Position numbers and translations under genes: made by a program
The notes under the pieces: model-generated
What the model saw: only the letters and a program-made list of their open reading frames with translations
Told to the model about the DNA's origin: nothing
Database searches by the model: none
Assembly (NCBI GenBank): GCA_030765625.1
Contig: JAVCCF010000026.1
Coordinates: forward strand, 1-40,674
Length of the DNA stretch: 40,674 nucleotides
Direction of reading: 5' to 3'
Source: Candidatus Tenebribacter burtonii
Lineage (GTDB): Bacteria > Cloacimonadota > Cloacimonadia > Cloacimonadales > TCS61
Shown here: piece by piece, positions 14,869-33,015 of the stretch
Numbering within the stretch: position 1 is the stretch's first letter
How the letters are laid out: every line of letters begins with the position of its first letter

Positions 14869-16608
14869 TTATTTATATCTGAAAGAAACAACTTTATAAC
14901 ATTTATATTTTTCAGGATGTTTATCAAACAACTTCTTTAGAGAAATTGTAGTTAGATTCGAATTCACGGAATTGAAATCATTATTGTTATTAATTTCAAT
15001 TACATCTTTGGTTGATAAGAATTTTTTATAATGTTTCTCCTTTGCAGCTAATTCATCTCGGGATTCATCTACTCCTCTTGATATAATATTATCGAGATTA
15101 ACGTTTAGATTAAAAATAACATCCGGTTTAGGTGTTAATAATTCTAATAATTTATAGATAGGTCTATTGTATTTCGCTGAATTGCTCAAAATTTCCATAT
15201 CTATAATCGAATCATATATATATCTGTCAGCAATAATAGATTTACCAAATATCAAAGGAATTCTAATTTTAATAAAATACCATAATATCATTTCCCAAGA
15301 ATTAAGTAAACGCCATAAATAAATAGTTACCGGATTCTTTGGTAAGCTTTTTTTCTTACGAGAATCTTGCTTTTTAATTTCTTTTTTTTCAGAATTACTT
15401 TTAAAAAACCGAGCCATTTTTAATAATTTGTTAATAACTGGTAAAGATCCAGCTCTACTCCAAATAACATTAGTCTTAATATCACATGTCCTATGATTTT
15501 CTAATAATGTATTAATGTGTGAAGATTTCCCACAACCATCTATTCCACTAAATACTACAAATAATGGAGGATGAGGTTTTATTTGCAATTTATTGTGGAT
15601 AAAACCATCAAATAGATGTGTAATAACGATATAAAACCTATCAAATTTTGAACCAAAAGTTTCATCTTTCAAAATTCTTTTCGAAGAATGAAATCTTGTC
15701 CAAAGATGTGGAATTGAAAAGGGCATTTTAACTTCTTTTATTAAAATATTTTTTAACTTTTTAGAAATCCAACCAATTTTATTTATAAAGTTCCATGAAT
15801 TTTCTATCACTTTTTTTGGAAACATCTCTTCTTGAAAAAGTTTAAAATATAGATGATTAAATATTATAAAACCAGTATGAAGACTTTGCCGCCAATTTAG
15901 TTTTTCTGCTGTTTTATAGATATATTCCCAATTAACATCAATATTGTTCATGCAACTTTTAATTGTTAATAAATCATAAATTTTAATTAAGTGATCTTCA
16001 AGAAAACAGTGTGCAGTATTTATAAGAAGAGCATCATCATAACAAGGATAATGCACCAGTTCATCATCAGAAGAGACAAGATAATTTTTCCAAAGATGTT
16101 TGTTATCTTCATAGGGAACACTCCAACAAACCCTTTCATGTAGATGAATCGGACATACCACTCTATTTCCATCAAATTTCCTGTAAAATTCTTTATGTGC
16201 TTCTTGTATATTCCTGAGATCAACATAACCTATTTCTACTAAAATTTCACCGGCTCTTTTAAAATCTTTTTGTTTTACTAAAATATCCAAATTATCACTT
16301 AAATATGGGAATTTACCTACCGATTTATGAAAAATATAATCAATCCCTTCAACTTCCCATTTCTTTTTTATTATGAAAAATTCAGATCTCCAATTATTGT
16401 AGTGAACAATTTCAGCATTATTAGCTTTTGTAAATTCTTCACATTCAAAAAAGGAACGGTTTACTTGATTTGTATCTAATAACTCAATAAAACTGATCTT
16501 ATTCTTTTTAAGTTTTTTTATTACTTTTGGATACTCTTCCTTAAGTAATTCAATTTTGTTCTCTTTATCAAATATCAAATCGATAGTATATTTATCTATT
16601 CTATTCAC
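14869..16608 (-). CDS. Nucleotidyltransferase-like plus thymidylate-kinase-like fusion protein
   Basis: 579 residues, GTG start overlapping the upstream TAG by one base. Residues ~1-330 resemble the uncharacterised nucleotidyltransferase family (NTP_transf_5), with YLSDNLDILVKQKDF where active members have a D-x-D; here the first Asp appears to be Asn (N106-L-D108). Residues ~348-579 are a P-loop kinase of the thymidylate-kinase fold, with Walker A SGIDGCGKSS (354-363), DRYIYDS (461-467) and KPDVIFNLNV. Such kinases in glycan clusters are thought to phosphorylate a precursor rather than dTMP, but the substrate is unknown. A Lys/Ser-rich insert (~400-425) precedes the lid. Confidence 0.72.
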   Translation of the reverse strand: MNRIDKYTIDLIFDKENKIELLKEEYPKVIKKLKKNKISFIELLDTNQVNRSFFECEEFTKANNAEIVHYNNWRSEFFIIKKKWEVEGIDYIFHKSVGKFPYLSDNLDILVKQKDFKRAGEILVEIGYVDLRNIQEAHKEFYRKFDGNRVVCPIHLHERVCWSVPYEDNKHLWKNYLVSSDDELVHYPCYDDALLINTAHCFLEDHLIKIYDLLTIKSCMNNIDVNWEYIYKTAEKLNWRQSLHTGFIIFNHLYFKLFQEEMFPKKVIENSWNFINKIGWISKKLKNILIKEVKMPFSIPHLWTRFHSSKRILKDETFGSKFDRFYIVITHLFDGFIHNKLQIKPHPPLFVVFSGIDGCGKSSHINTLLENHRTCDIKTNVIWSRAGSLPVINKLLKMARFFKSNSEKKEIKKQDSRKKKSLPKNPVTIYLWRLLNSWEMILWYFIKIRIPLIFGKSIIADRYIYDSIIDMEILSNSAKYNRPIYKLLELLTPKPDVIFNLNVNLDNIISRGVDESRDELAAKEKHYKKFLSTKDVIEINNNNDFNSVNSNLTTISLKKLFDKHPEKYKCYKVVSFRYK

Positions 16609-17726
16609 TAATTTTGTCCCTGCAGTTTTTTGTATAAGTTCAACGTCATCTGCCCGATGCTATCACTATTAAATTCTAATGCTCTTTTTCTACCTGCAAA
16701 CTTACCTCTATTATTCAGAATATTAATAAGTTTTGAACTAAAATCTGTTATATCTCTTTCAGCAAGAAAACACCCGTCTAGATCATTTATCATGGATTTC
16801 ACATCTCCTACATTAACGGAGACTATTGGAATATTACAAGCTAAAGCTTCTTTAATAACAGTCGGGCTCCCTTCGTATAATGATGAAAAAGCAAAAACAT
16901 CAGCACAATTTAATAATTCCGGAATGATCTCATTTGCAACTTCACCCTTAAAAAAAACATCTTTTATTCCTTTTTGGGAAACATATGCTTTATATTCCTC
17001 TTCTTGCCTGCCAGAGCCAACCAATAACAACTTAACATTTCCGATTTTTTTTTGAACATGAACAAAAGAATCTATAATGAATTTTACATTTTTTTCTTTT
17101 TCTATACGTCCGACAAATATTATTATTTTATCTTTTTTTGAAAAATGATATTTTTTTCTTATCATTTCACTATCCATAGGGAAAAATTTATCTGTATCTA
17201 CAGCAATAGGAATTAATTTGATTTTATTTTTTATTGAAGGATATTTTCTAACATAATAATCTTTTGTATTCTTATCAACCGCAATTAACAGATCAGCGAA
17301 TCTGAAAGCAATTGATTGTAAAAGTTGATAAATAATCCCTTGAATGAACCCTTTCTTATCATAAACAGCGAGATCGTGTGCACCGTGCAAAGAACAAACT
17401 AATTTTGTCTTTCTAAAAAAAAATATTGCTGGAATTAACATATCCGGACGCTGTGCATGAATTATAGTTTCGTCCGTTACGCTTAATTCTTTGAGCTTAG
17501 AGAACAGGGCAAAAATATATTTATAATTTGAAGGATCAGATTCCGGTAATATTTGCTTGAATTCAGTAAATACTTGATTTGATCCGTTATTCTCTTTACC
17601 GACTCCACATAAAACAGTTTCAACATTTTTGGTTCTGAGAAACTTCGATAAATTCATTAAATACGACATTATCCCACCGGATGAAGTCCTGTATGGATTC
17701 TCATTTTCAATAAAATAAACTTTCAT
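16608..17726 (-). CDS. Glycosyltransferase family 4
   Basis: 372 residues. ENPYRTSSGGIMSYLMNLSK is the N-terminal acceptor-domain opening of GT4 enzymes; IIFVGRIEKEKNVKFIIDSF starts the nucleotide-sugar domain; and FSSLYEGSPTVIKEALACNIPIVS contains the conserved donor-binding E-x7-E. It is probably cytoplasmic, adding a sugar to the lipid-linked repeat. Its start codon overlaps the TAA of the upstream gene by one base, so it is translationally coupled to its neighbours on both sides. Confidence 0.9.
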   Translation of the reverse strand: MKVYFIENENPYRTSSGGIMSYLMNLSKFLRTKNVETVLCGVGKENNGSNQVFTEFKQILPESDPSNYKYIFALFSKLKELSVTDETIIHAQRPDMLIPAIFFFRKTKLVCSLHGAHDLAVYDKKGFIQGIIYQLLQSIAFRFADLLIAVDKNTKDYYVRKYPSIKNKIKLIPIAVDTDKFFPMDSEMIRKKYHFSKKDKIIIFVGRIEKEKNVKFIIDSFVHVQKKIGNVKLLLVGSGRQEEEYKAYVSQKGIKDVFFKGEVANEIIPELLNCADVFAFSSLYEGSPTVIKEALACNIPIVSVNVGDVKSMINDLDGCFLAERDITDFSSKLINILNNRGKFAGRKRALEFNSDSIGQMTLNLYKKLQGQN

Positions 17727-18745
17727 TATTTAATGAACTCGTTAATATGTTCTAATATTACTTCCGTAGTATCTGCCCATTCATTTTCAATCTTTACATT
17801 AATTTTGTTAGATAATTCCTGACTAACAGAATTATTGATAAGTAAGTCAATTCTTTCAAATATCGATTCAACACTATCTTCTTTATACATAATTTCAATT
17901 TCAATTAATTCATTATTCATAACCATCTCTCTGCCACCGGTATATATGCATGGTGTTCCAAGCAGGCATGCTTCCCGTGCCATTGTGTCACCTGAGGATA
18001 AAGCAAATTGTGCATATTTCAAGATTGAATATAAGTCTTCAACCGGTTCTTTTAAAACTATACATTTATCTTCTAAAACTTTTTTCAGATCATCATCTTC
18101 TAAAGAGATAACTACCTTTTTCCCTTTATTCACAATATAGGATACAATATCTATTATGCTTTTGTTTTCTTCTTTATAGTTAAGGCTCACATTAGATATT
18201 TCACGAATAAAAACATAATCACTTTCAATTAAATTGAGTTTCTTTAATGAATTTTTATTTGCCCTAAATGTACCTGGATAAAGATATGCCAATTCTTTAA
18301 AACCTTTATACTTCCAAGTTCTCTTATTACTGAAATTAATATAATCCGGCATAATATGACGAGTAGCAAAAATATTTGCATGATAAAACGGTATTTTATA
18401 TTCAACATCATCTTCAAAAGCTAAATATGGTATTCTGTTAAACCAGGAAGATATTGCATTTGTAGGACCGAAACATACAGAAAGTTCTATTTTATTTTTA
18501 CGCTGAAACCTAAACATTAAAAGGTCTCTAATTAGTTGCCCAAAAAATTTTGAAAGGAATCTTTTATAATGTTTTCCTATTGGTGTTGAATTAAGATCAC
18601 TCAATTCATAATCTACAATTTTTTGTAATTTGCCTCTGGAACGATAAGTTATAATTATTCTATGCCCTTGTTCTTTAAGTATTAATATCGTGCTTTTAAA
18701 AAAATTTACATCCACCGGATGATTTAAATCAAATAATATATTCAT
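17726..18745 (-). CDS. DUF354 protein, GT-B-like
   Basis: 339 residues opening with FDLNHPVDVNFFK, the hallmark of DUF354 proteins, which have a UDP-GlcNAc 2-epimerase/GT-B-like fold and are common in archaeal and bacterial surface-glycan loci. GDTMAREACLLGTPCIYTGG near 260 corresponds to the nucleotide-sugar binding region of the GT-B C-terminal half. The biochemical activity of the family is not established; a glycosyltransferase or epimerase role is inference. One-base overlap with the downstream GT4 gene. Confidence 0.82.
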   Translation of the reverse strand: MNILFDLNHPVDVNFFKSTILILKEQGHRIIITYRSRGKLQKIVDYELSDLNSTPIGKHYKRFLSKFFGQLIRDLLMFRFQRKNKIELSVCFGPTNAISSWFNRIPYLAFEDDVEYKIPFYHANIFATRHIMPDYINFSNKRTWKYKGFKELAYLYPGTFRANKNSLKKLNLIESDYVFIREISNVSLNYKEENKSIIDIVSYIVNKGKKVVISLEDDDLKKVLEDKCIVLKEPVEDLYSILKYAQFALSSGDTMAREACLLGTPCIYTGGREMVMNNELIEIEIMYKEDSVESIFERIDLLINNSVSQELSNKINVKIENEWADTTEVILEHINEFIK

Positions 18746-18756
18746 AAATACTCTTA

Positions 18757-19761
18757 TTAAAATTTTTGCTTAATTTTAAGCCCAATCTTACCAATTTTCA
18801 TGAACAAAGGTTTATTCACTTTCTCAAACCTGCCGTAATTAACTAAATTACCACCAAATTTTTTCTTATAATCACGTACCCCATAAGGAACATCAGGTTT
18901 TCCCGCTCCTCCAAAATCAAAAGTTTCAAAATTATTTCCCCCCCCCCATTTAAAAACTTCCCAAGGGATTAAATCATTAGGATATTTATTATAGAAATCA
19001 AATATAGCTCCAGCATAAAAATCATAAATTGTTTTTTTATATAATAACGCAATCATACATCCAATTATTCTATTTTCGTATTTAGCACAAAACAATTGTA
19101 GTCCCATTCTACTATCAGAAAATCCAAGAATATTTTCAAATAAACTGAAATCTGGTAAAGGAAGTTTTGCTCTATCATAAACAGATTGAAGAATTGAATA
19201 ACATTCTCGCAGTTCGTTTATACTTTTTTCAGTATAAAAAGAAGTTCCTTCCTTTATTGCTCTTCTAATCTCATTACGTCTTTTTGAATGGACATCTTTC
19301 CACAATTCATCTTCACTTTTATTTAAGTTCACTAGTATATTCAAATGCTCTTCATATTCAAATCCATTATTTATAAAAATATCTTTTAAGTTTGTCCAAT
19401 TCCACATATTCCGAAATTGAGAATAAATGGCTTTTCGTTTGATTGTTTTATTATATTCTTGTAAAATAATATTCAATACATCAGCATTTTCATTCCGGAT
19501 TAACGGACCACCATAAATGATTGATCGAGCAGTAAAGTTTCCTAAAAATCCAGAATACTCTCTTTGGATAACTGCTAATAATAATCCCAATATATCATCA
19601 TCATTATCAATAACTGCTAAAAATACCGGTTCATATTTTTTTGTATCTTTATAAACCTTATACATTTCATGTGTTTGAAATATGTTTCCATTCCCATGAT
19701 TTGAAACAAATTCAGACCATCTCTTATTATCTAATTCGCGTACTATTCTATAATTAACCAT
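18757..19761 (-). CDS. FemAB/GNAT-type acyl or aminoacyl transferase with internal G10 tract
   Basis: 334 residues from the ATG at 19761; the ORF-track start at 19773 is a TTG, and GGAT upstream fits the ATG better. The pattern WSEFVSNHGNGNIFQTHEMY, SKRRNEIRRAIKEG, FCAKYENRIIGCMIALL and NDLIPWEVFKW...FDFGGAGKP matches the FemAB-like/BioF2-like GNAT proteins that attach amino-acyl or acyl groups to cell-wall or glycan precursors. In this operon it most likely decorates a sugar of the repeat unit. The codons for Trp-Gly-Gly-Gly before NNFETFDFGG contain ten consecutive G, and the frame is intact in this sequence. Confidence 0.78.
   Translation of the reverse strand: MVNYRIVRELDNKRWSEFVSNHGNGNIFQTHEMYKVYKDTKKYEPVFLAVIDNDDDILGLLLAVIQREYSGFLGNFTARSIIYGGPLIRNENADVLNIILQEYNKTIKRKAIYSQFRNMWNWTNLKDIFINNGFEYEEHLNILVNLNKSEDELWKDVHSKRRNEIRRAIKEGTSFYTEKSINELRECYSILQSVYDRAKLPLPDFSLFENILGFSDSRMGLQLFCAKYENRIIGCMIALLYKKTIYDFYAGAIFDFYNKYPNDLIPWEVFKWGGGNNFETFDFGGAGKPDVPYGVRDYKKKFGGNLVNYGRFEKVNKPLFMKIGKIGLKIKQKF
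18938..18947 (-). repeat. G10 homopolymer inside the FemAB/GNAT gene
   Basis: Ten C on the + strand, read as TGG GGG GGG GGA in the gene. Slippage by one base would shift the frame ~60 residues before the C-terminus and destroy the conserved FDFGG region. This is a typical contingency-locus configuration. Confidence 0.8.
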
Positions 19762-19779
19762 TAATAAATCCAATTGATT

Positions 19780-21210
19780 TTAAGGTTGAACACCGGCATT
19801 TCCAACTACTTGTGAAAACCAATTTGAATAATTTACAGTTCCGGCATCATCACCACCGGGTTCATCTGTTTCATCCAAGATTAAGTCTTGAATTTCTGTT
19901 TCTACTGTAGTTCCCCACCAGTTGTTTTGAGCCAAAACATTGTTCCCACCATTATAGTATTCAAGATGAAATATATAACCTTCATTGATCAAAAAATTAT
20001 TATATTCAGCAACAATATCTGCACTTCTATAACATCTAATGAATGCAAATGTATTATCATCAATGAATTCACAATAATTAATTGTAATCTGTCCATCATA
20101 ATTATATTCTTTCTCAGAATAAATGGCATATAGTTCACTGTTTTCAAAAGTGCAATGCTCAAACAAAGGGTAAGAATTATATTGAGCTTTAACATGAGTA
20201 CTATTACCATAATAATAGCAATTAGTAATAGCAGGGGAAGATTCATACAATTGCAAACCATGATAATCGTTATTCATAAAAATACTATTATTAATAATGA
20301 TTTCTTCAGAATCTTCTTTTGTCCAGGTACCATAAATCCCATCACGACAATCATAAATAGTACAATTATTAATAATACCTGAATTATTATCAAAAATTAC
20401 TCCGTACACCAAACTGTTTAACAGTGCTGTATTTTCCACTTCTAAATTACCTTCATTATCAATTCCTGTACCTGCCCATTGAATTATGCAATATGTTAAA
20501 TCACAGTTTCCTAAAGAACTTGTTACTCCCTCCCAATCACCTTTTGCTGGTTGGGTTTCGCTTGAAGTTAATATTACAGGTAATTCTGCAGAACCATTAA
20601 TTTCCAATTCACCTATCACAGAGAAATCTGAACTACTTATTTCAATTACGGTATTCTCTAAAATAATTAAAGAACCATCAGTAAGTATAGCAAAATTATC
20701 ATCAATAATAATATGCTGATCCGGTCCCCAGGTTAAGCTATTGCTTACAGGTTGTTCAGCAATTATTGTCTCACGCATATTCAATTCAACGTATTCATCA
20801 TCATGAATATCAATGATTCTTTTATGCCAGCCAAATCCATCCGCAGAATAGACAAGGATATATTTATTCTCTGCTATATCTTTAATCTCAAATTCACCAT
20901 TACTACCTGTTATTGCTGATTTAACCGGCTCACCAAGTAAACGGTGATCACTGAATAAACCTGAATCCATATTTGTACCAAGAGAACTATGATCACTTTT
21001 TAGCTCTTTTATCTTCTCAAACTCTGTACCAACAGCATAGAGATCAATTTGTGCGGAACTATTATTTTCAATTATTTGCCCGGATGAATCCATGAAGATT
21101 ATTTTCCCAGATAATTTATGGGTAGAAGGAGGGGAAGTTGGATCACTATTGCAACCAAAGAATAAAAAAAAGACACAACAAATCAGGAGAATTTCAATTT
21201 TTCTTTTCAT
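19780..21210 (-). CDS. Lipoprotein with right-handed parallel beta-helix
   Basis: 476 residues. MKRKIEILLICCVFFLFFGC followed by NSDPTSPPS is a lipoprotein signal with lipobox FFGC. Residues ~30-150 look like a carboxypeptidase-regulatory/Ig-like beta domain (TGSNGEFEIKDIAENKYILVYSADG). From ~190 onward short repeating segments such as GIINNCTIYDCRDGIYG, EIIINNSIFMNNDYHGLQLY and SPAITNCYYYGNS form NosD/pectate-lyase-like parallel beta-helix coils, and NNWWGT appears near the end as in many such proteins. A surface glycan-binding or lyase role is possible, but no catalytic residues can be assigned. It sits inside the glycan operon, 18 bases upstream of the FemAB-like gene. Confidence 0.78.
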   Translation of the reverse strand: MKRKIEILLICCVFFLFFGCNSDPTSPPSTHKLSGKIIFMDSSGQIIENNSSAQIDLYAVGTEFEKIKELKSDHSSLGTNMDSGLFSDHRLLGEPVKSAITGSNGEFEIKDIAENKYILVYSADGFGWHKRIIDIHDDEYVELNMRETIIAEQPVSNSLTWGPDQHIIIDDNFAILTDGSLIILENTVIEISSSDFSVIGELEINGSAELPVILTSSETQPAKGDWEGVTSSLGNCDLTYCIIQWAGTGIDNEGNLEVENTALLNSLVYGVIFDNNSGIINNCTIYDCRDGIYGTWTKEDSEEIIINNSIFMNNDYHGLQLYESSPAITNCYYYGNSTHVKAQYNSYPLFEHCTFENSELYAIYSEKEYNYDGQITINYCEFIDDNTFAFIRCYRSADIVAEYNNFLINEGYIFHLEYYNGGNNVLAQNNWWGTTVETEIQDLILDETDEPGGDDAGTVNYSNWFSQVVGNAGVQP

Positions 21211-29905: not shown

Positions 29906-31012
29906 TCACTTATTTTCTTGAAACTCTTTCACAAGCTCTTCCAAGAAAATTGGAGCCGTTCCAATTTTACCTACTTTTATGCCGGCTGCATGATTTGCCA
30001 GAATGGCTGCATTATTAAGAGTAGCTCCGCAACTTAAAGCCAGGGCAAGTACGGCAATAACTGTATCACCTGCACCGGAGACATCGTAAACTTCTTTGGC
30101 AATCGTAGGGATGTGAGAAACTGATAAGTGTTGAGTGGTGATTGTTGATCCTTCCTTAAGAGAACTACGTGAAAGATCCGTCAGGATGACATCATTTTTC
30201 TTTAACTCCCCCTCTTTGTTCAAGAGAGGGGCTGGCCTGTCGGGGCGTAGCCTTGGCGAAGACCGAGGGGTAAGTCGCTCAAACACATACATCCCATCAG
30301 CACCGGCTGTAATGATAATATCGGAATCAAATTTATCAACAAGTACTTTTCCTGCTTTAATAAGATCTTCTTCTGATTCAATAATAATTCCGCTCATCTC
30401 TTGAGCTTCTTTTTTATTAGGAGTTACCAGAGTTGATCCGGAATACCATTCTTTATGCTTCGGTTTGGGATCAACAATTAGTAAAATATCATTTTCTTTA
30501 GAGAACTGGATCAGTTGTAATATCAATTGTTTGGTTATTGCACCTTTAGCATAGTCAGATATAATAATAGCAGAAAGATCTTTAACTTCTTTTAGCTTAT
30601 AAATAAATTTGTCTTCCACATGTGTCTCGATGTAATCTGTATTTTCATAATCAATTCTAAGCAATTGTTGATTGAGTCCAATTACACGAGTTTTACGGAT
30701 CGTTGTTTTATTATTATCTGTAATAATACCCAAAGTTGGAATATTCATTTCCGCTGTCTTACTTAAAAGAATATCTTTGTACTGATCATTCCCCACAATA
30801 CCAAATAGGAAAGGATTCCCACCCAGAGTAGAAATATTTGCAGCAACATTAGCTGCACCACCCGGAACATATTTTTCTCTTAATACCCGAACAATAGGAA
30901 CAGGCGCTTCTGGTGATATACGGTCAACTTCTCCATAGACGTATTTATCCAGGATGAGATCACCGATCACAGCAATTTTCTGGTTTTTAAATTTCTTTAT
31001 TATTTCTTTCAT
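29906..31012 (-). CDS. D-glycero-D-manno-heptose-7-phosphate kinase with in-frame repeat insertion
   Basis: 368 residues of the PfkB/ribokinase family, kinase half only (HldA-like, no cytidylyltransferase domain). IAVIGDLILDKYVYGEVDRISPEAPVP is the RfaE signature; GGAANVAANI (51-60) and VSGAGDT (311-317, catalytic Asp316) are intact. It phosphorylates heptose-7-phosphate for LPS core ADP-heptose. Residues ~246-299 (RLTPRSSPRLRPDRP...TTQHLSVS) have no counterpart in the family, and the flanks GMYVFE and HIPTIAKEVYD join normally across them. This accounts for the protein being ~45-50 residues longer than usual. The insert coincides with intergenic repeats (see 30116-30277). Ribosome binding site AGGTAAT. 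Confidence 0.9.
   Translation of the reverse strand: MKEIIKKFKNQKIAVIGDLILDKYVYGEVDRISPEAPVPIVRVLREKYVPGGAANVAANISTLGGNPFLFGIVGNDQYKDILLSKTAEMNIPTLGIITDNNKTTIRKTRVIGLNQQLLRIDYENTDYIETHVEDKFIYKLKEVKDLSAIIISDYAKGAITKQLILQLIQFSKENDILLIVDPKPKHKEWYSGSTLVTPNKKEAQEMSGIIIESEEDLIKAGKVLVDKFDSDIIITAGADGMYVFERLTPRSSPRLRPDRPAPLLNKEGELKKNDVILTDLSRSSLKEGSTITTQHLSVSHIPTIAKEVYDVSGAGDTVIAVLALALSCGATLNNAAILANHAAGIKVGKIGTAPIFLEELVKEFQENK
30116..30277. repeat. Composite repeat inserted in frame within the heptose kinase gene
   Basis: About 162 bases, a multiple of three. 30148-30190 is a P1 right half (ATCCTTCCTTAAGAGAAC...GTCAGGATGAC), which matches 3630-3660 and 8600-8644. 30200-30275 (family P2, CTTTAACTCCCCCTCT...GACCGAGGGGTAAGT) matches 32937-33015 with few differences and a three-base length change. 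No stop codon arises in the kinase frame. Confidence 0.85.
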
Positions 31013-32929: not shown

Positions 32930-32936
32930 GATTAGT

Positions 32937-33015
32937 CTTTAACTCCCCCTCTAATGGGTTTAAGAGAGGGGCTGGACTGTCGGGGCGTAGCTTTGGCGAA
33001 GACCGAGGGGTGAGT
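32937..33015 (-). repeat. P2 repeat, intergenic copy
   Basis: CTTTAACTCCCCCTCTAATGG through GACCGAGGGGTGAGT. It is the sister of 30200-30275 inside the heptose kinase gene. CCCCTCT and AGAGGGG form a hairpin stem. On the minus strand one frame is open in both copies (LTPRSSP.LRPD.PAPLL), which is why ORF 32850-33050 appears in the track. Confidence 0.8.

Follow-up and report, generated by a model that had tools for sequence, protein, structure and literature searches.

A putatively slippage-capable, lineage-specific G10 tract in a FemX-like transferase gene of Candidatus Tenebribacter burtonii

Does a run of ten G inside a transferase gene of an AT-rich surface-polysaccharide cluster act as a phase-variation switch, or did it arise and persist for other reasons? 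The window, i.e. the whole stretch of 40,674 nucleotides analysed here, carries C10 on the plus strand at 18938-18947, which corresponds to G10 in the sense (minus-strand) orientation of a FemAB/GNAT gene. A sequence-only reading of this DNA had put the gene forward as a candidate for phase-variable surface decoration. The explanation that we favour, with about even confidence, is that of a real, lineage-specific G10 tract capable of on/off slippage, whose switching would more likely be incidental than evolved. The features to which the analysis refers are listed below, with the basis for each in brackets.

8929-29754, minus strand: run of genes, mostly for surface-polysaccharide synthesis, that includes the FemX-like gene (Pfam, NCBIfam)
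14869-16608, minus strand: NTP_transf_5/thymidylate-kinase-like fusion (Pfam; same order in L058)
16608-17726, minus strand: glycosyltransferase (Pfam; same order in L058)
17726-18745, minus strand: DUF354 protein (glycosyltransferase-like), next gene downstream (Pfam; syntenic in L058)
18757-19773, minus strand: FemX-like FemAB/GNAT transferase gene, probable start ATG at 19761 (Pfam, NCBIfam, fold, alignment)
18757-18937, minus strand: C-terminal part predicted to be lost or replaced upon a one-base slip (translation, alignment, model)
18938-18947, minus strand: G10 homopolymer in sense, encoding W-G-G-G, in the ON frame (sequence, genome count)
19780-21210, minus strand: beta-helix protein directly upstream of the FemX-like gene (Pfam)

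The FemX-like gene and its surroundings

The FemAB/GNAT family assignment made from the sequence alone is correct, given that the product passes the Pfam gathering thresholds for both FemAB (PF02388; 46.7 bits versus 24) and Acetyltransf_6 (PF13480; 41.4 bits versus 22). The alignment of homologues begins at M5, encoded by the ATG at 19761, and the listed TTG start is therefore probably four codons too early. The top NCBIfam match is TIGR03019, the XrtA/PEP-CTERM-associated FemAB family, over residues 18-307; with 60.7 bits versus a cut-off of 260, the window protein is a relative and not a member. The FemX equivalog NF047883 scores 52.3 bits versus a curated cut-off of 500, which likewise places the protein outside that family.

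To look beyond sequence families we turned to an AlphaFold model based on an alignment of 42 homologues (pLDDT 95.4, pTM 0.91), which has a FemX-type fold. The eleven best PDB matches of the model are all FemX, FemA or aminoacyl-tRNA-dependent peptide synthases, followed by MprF-type amino-acid lipid synthases. The match to FemX from Weissella viridescens and to other FemA/FemX transferases (PDB 1ne9, 7z6a, 6snr, 1lrz) is near full length (E 2e-21, TM 0.72) and is accompanied by a match of the sequence profile, although identity is 18-19% and the window gene is located in a polysaccharide cluster. The aminoacyl-tRNA-dependent peptide synthases Sbb17 and Sba18 (9wqw, 9wqy) share the fold with a TM of 0.84-0.85 over the target, but they have 14-15% identity, are complexed with streptothrisamine and belong to another pathway. 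As judged by the model, the gene product is a FemX-like transferase. Since the solved structures closest to it are those of FemX and aminoacyl-tRNA-dependent transferases, the protein may transfer an amino acid from tRNA onto an amine; we consider this chemistry no less likely than acyl transfer.

The proposed setting in a surface-polysaccharide cluster was borne out by Pfam, NCBIfam and synteny with L058, from another member of the Cloacimonadota family. Besides glycosyltransferases, the cluster encodes a protein resembling sugar-phosphate transferases and one that matches a flippase weakly, and the order FemAB, DUF354, glycosyltransferase, NTP_transf_5/kinase is common to the window and L058. 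Because the DUF354 gene starts 11 bases past the normal stop of the FemX-like gene, a slip in the tract could also reduce DUF354 translation.

A separate observation in the window concerns the HldE-like kinase gene at 29906-31012, which has an in-frame insertion of approximately 40 residues at 30155-30275. It consists of a dispersed repeat that the genome matches, fully or in part, at 19 places, including 32936-33015.

The G10 tract and the effect of a one-base slip

Read in sense, the sequence across the tract is AAA TGG GGG GGG GGA AAT, i.e. K-W-G-G-G-N. In the numbering of the TTG-started ORF, the G10 encodes W276-G-G-G279 (codons 276-279), shortly ahead of an FDFGG motif at 285-289, as the earlier reading had described; its remark that the gene is AT-rich also holds, with a GC content of 28.4% for the FemX-like gene and 32.2% for the window.

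Pattern searches of the assembly (2,808,146 bases, 181 contigs) provided genome-wide statistics. There is a single G10 in the assembly, and it is the genome's sole sense-coding G run of at least 8; runs of length 6, 7, 8, 9 and 10 number 40, 3, 1, 2 and 1, respectively. Extrapolation from short runs gives 0.02-0.45 expected runs of at least 9 and 0.0015-0.09 of at least 10, versus 3 and 1 seen. Within the window, G8 is matched 5 times (two tracts, overlapping registers) versus 0.15 expected from dinucleotide shuffles. Two of the three tracts of at least 9 are inside the window, a clustering that was left out as evidence because the window was selected for one of them. With K-W-G-G-G fixed and glycine codons used as in the window, the chance of a run of at least 10 is approximately 1.6%. 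Chance composition was rejected as the source of the G10, since long runs exceed both the shuffle and the short-run expectation.

The assembled tract is in the ON frame, with 338 codons. On translation, the slipped G9 version comes to 309 codons and ends in a foreign tail of 30 residues, and the G11 version comes to 280 codons; G7 or G13 preserve the reading frame. A change of one unit thus shifts the frame of a full-length gene, as in a contingency locus. The tract lies in the final sixth of the gene, and the spacing between its Trp and FDFGG matches that of nearly all homologues. In the AlphaFold model it forms the end of helix 265-279, ahead of strand 284-289. Both G9 and G11 lose this strand together with nine of the eleven residues that are invariant in the alignment of 42 homologues, including D286, G289, G291, P293, R300, K303, G307, G308 and R315. 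Because the strand and the nine invariant residues are all beyond the tract, the G9 or G11 product is very likely inactive. The earlier claim that a slip inactivates the enzyme therefore stands for the predicted loss of the conserved C-terminus, while the inactivity itself is something that we infer from it.

In other bacteria, G runs exceeding 7 are placed in a hypermutable class, with rates of 1e-5 to 1e-2 per division (PMC4235727), and by its length the G10 falls into this class. Campylobacter jejuni has 12-27 such poly-G genes with demonstrated length variation, and its very high rates have been attributed to missing mismatch repair (PMC4235727). The window gene resembles the capsule and LOS contingency loci of C. 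jejuni in that a surface-polysaccharide gene of an AT-rich genome contains a G tract longer than 7 within its reading frame, and in that a one-base slip is predicted to truncate the product. Unlike C. jejuni, the window genome has one coding sense tract and encodes both MutS and MutL. The two proteins are also found in the majority of relatives, among them G022, G028 and G013, which are rich in G-runs. Mismatch repair reduces slippage rates; its loss as a cause of the long G-runs was rejected for this genome since MutS and MutL are present. We regard the tract as probably mutable in this organism and infer frequent slippage. The open literature that we searched contained no phase-variation reports for Cloacimonadota.

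G-runs in homologues and in family relatives

Is the tract shared? None of 80 homologues has a run above G6 at the tract site, and a contingency tract conserved among homologues was rejected on this ground. In these homologues the Trp-Gly motif mostly reads TGGGG and is followed mostly by K/R/S/A and then E/Q/N/K, which led us to reject a protein-level need for three glycines. The syntenic relative L058 has TGG GGA AGT GAA AAT where the window has TGG GGG GGG GGA AAT, and the length of the window protein around the tract equals that of homologues exactly. The comparison covered one genome per species; the closest within-genus copy is a 51%-identical C-terminal fragment, present in G004 only, and a search of viral contigs for a same-species copy of the tract locus did not find the exact flank. 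The extra glycines are thus dispensable to the protein. The tract originated in the window lineage, and by these comparisons it is lineage-specific. It combines the TGGGG of the conserved Trp-Gly with G-rich sequence at the next two variable codons, giving ten G with unchanged protein length.

At the level of the family, runs of at least 10 G occur in 20 of 40 genomes, the longest being G22, and most of the tracts examined sit between genes. In-frame sense coding tracts are present in the window gene and in genes for a histidine kinase (G11), PheT, an AlbA/Schlafen protein and two beta-helix-like proteins. The run within pheT is an in-frame G10 (L247, G063). Since pheT is an essential gene, a G-run in a gene is by itself no sign of selected switching. 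A TrkH transporter gene in G004 is split at a G11 (L036, around 1501-1511), and G10 would rejoin its two TrkH-matching halves, so that the split is either a real off state or an assembly error. The L206 and L243 beta-helix genes are also split and carry coding G-runs. As the relatives are represented by consensus assemblies, in which sequencing errors are possible, the splits point to slippage or else to assembly error.

Tracts of at least 10 G are found within 200 bases of contig ends in 13 of 72 cases, versus 2.0 expected. This approximately six-fold enrichment indicates that assemblies tend to break at such tracts, and it fits slippage and assembly error alike. The enrichment is seen in family genomes such as G004, G013, G018, G022 and G028.

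The beta-helix PMP-like repeat proteins of L206, L243, L244 and L245 have G10 to G14 at GGGI-type repeats, and some of the genes are split at these tracts. They recall the poly-G tracts of chlamydial pmp genes.

Competing explanations and poly-G ribosome-binding sites

If the tract behaves as its length suggests, slipped-strand mispairing would generate a fraction of cells with G9 or G11 and hence a truncated, presumably inactive enzyme. The change would be reversible, so that the G10 would work like an on/off contingency tract. Whether selection maintains it for that purpose is a different matter. An evolved contingency locus, in which FemX-like decoration is switched on and off to diversify the surface, e.g. 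against phages, would account for the genome's only sense-coding G run of at least 8 being in a surface-polysaccharide gene, assembled in the ON frame and placed at a variable, tolerant site, and it has a precedent in the capsule and LOS genes of C. jejuni (PMC4235727). However, the tract is present in 0 of 80 homologues, the genome has a single coding tract and mismatch repair genes, and the family's G-runs are mostly intergenic and occur even in pheT. Evolved use of the tract is thus possible but unsupported, as the tract is lineage-unique, is the only such sense-coding run of its genome and has counterparts in relatives where switching makes no sense; we rate selection for switching as unlikely, if not markedly so. 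Of the original phase-variation proposal, the gene family, the cluster setting, the ON frame and the predicted effect of a slip hold up, whereas the homologue comparison, the family's G-runs and the mismatch-repair genes count against a selected switch.

At the other extreme, the run could be passive and effectively stable, with G10 having arisen by mutation at a tolerant site and being held by mismatch repair and purifying selection against frameshifts, without meaningful switching. The TGGGG seed in most homologues, the presence of MutS and MutL, and the other in-frame runs in relatives (pheT G10, histidine kinase G11) are in line with this, but runs this long are unstable wherever measured (PMC4235727) and homologous sites differ between species in G-run length, which leaves a stable run quite improbable. 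A sequencing or assembly artefact, i.e. a true run that is shorter, longer or interrupted, has to be considered since the organism is uncultured and its assembly is in 181 contigs, the more so given the contig-end enrichment in relatives. Yet the run is internal to a 40.7 kb contig, its flanks code in one frame and the local protein length is identical to that of homologues, and we consider an artefact very improbable.

Beyond the incidental on/off tract that we prefer for this gene, a wider reading is that the Cloacimonadota family broadly uses poly-G slippage for heterogeneous expression, via surface and beta-helix genes as well as G5-G12 Shine-Dalgarno tracts, and that the FemX-like gene is one such switch; we think this rather unlikely. 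If natural populations vary in tract length, a phylum lacking phase-variation reports in the literature searched would join the simple-repeat switchers, and tract length in metagenome reads would provide a culture-free marker of surface-polysaccharide heterogeneity. If the tract is invariant instead, it would show that the presence of a long G-run does not suffice to call a surface gene a contingency locus. The more interesting lead is the family-wide G-run pattern, especially the poly-G ribosome-binding sites of variable length.

Shortly upstream of ATG, G8 has 93 matches versus 32 in the reversed control (summed, with overlapping registers counted). In three species of the genus, runs of G12 (L256, G003), G11 (L259, G004) and G10 (L257, G002) immediately precede the TATG of a sigma-factor-like gene, and within-genus orthologues of the window ORF at 670-1509 have G5, G6, GGGAGG or GGAGAG at the Shine-Dalgarno position. 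As run length differs between species at these two orthologous ribosome-binding sites, G-runs evidently change length in this group, by sequence comparison mostly outside reading frames. In the window itself, a G9 at 657-665 is the Shine-Dalgarno tract of ORF 670-1509, which we label outer-membrane PorV-like from its sequence appearance, without a Pfam match; 657-665 is a candidate ribosome-binding site of variable strength.
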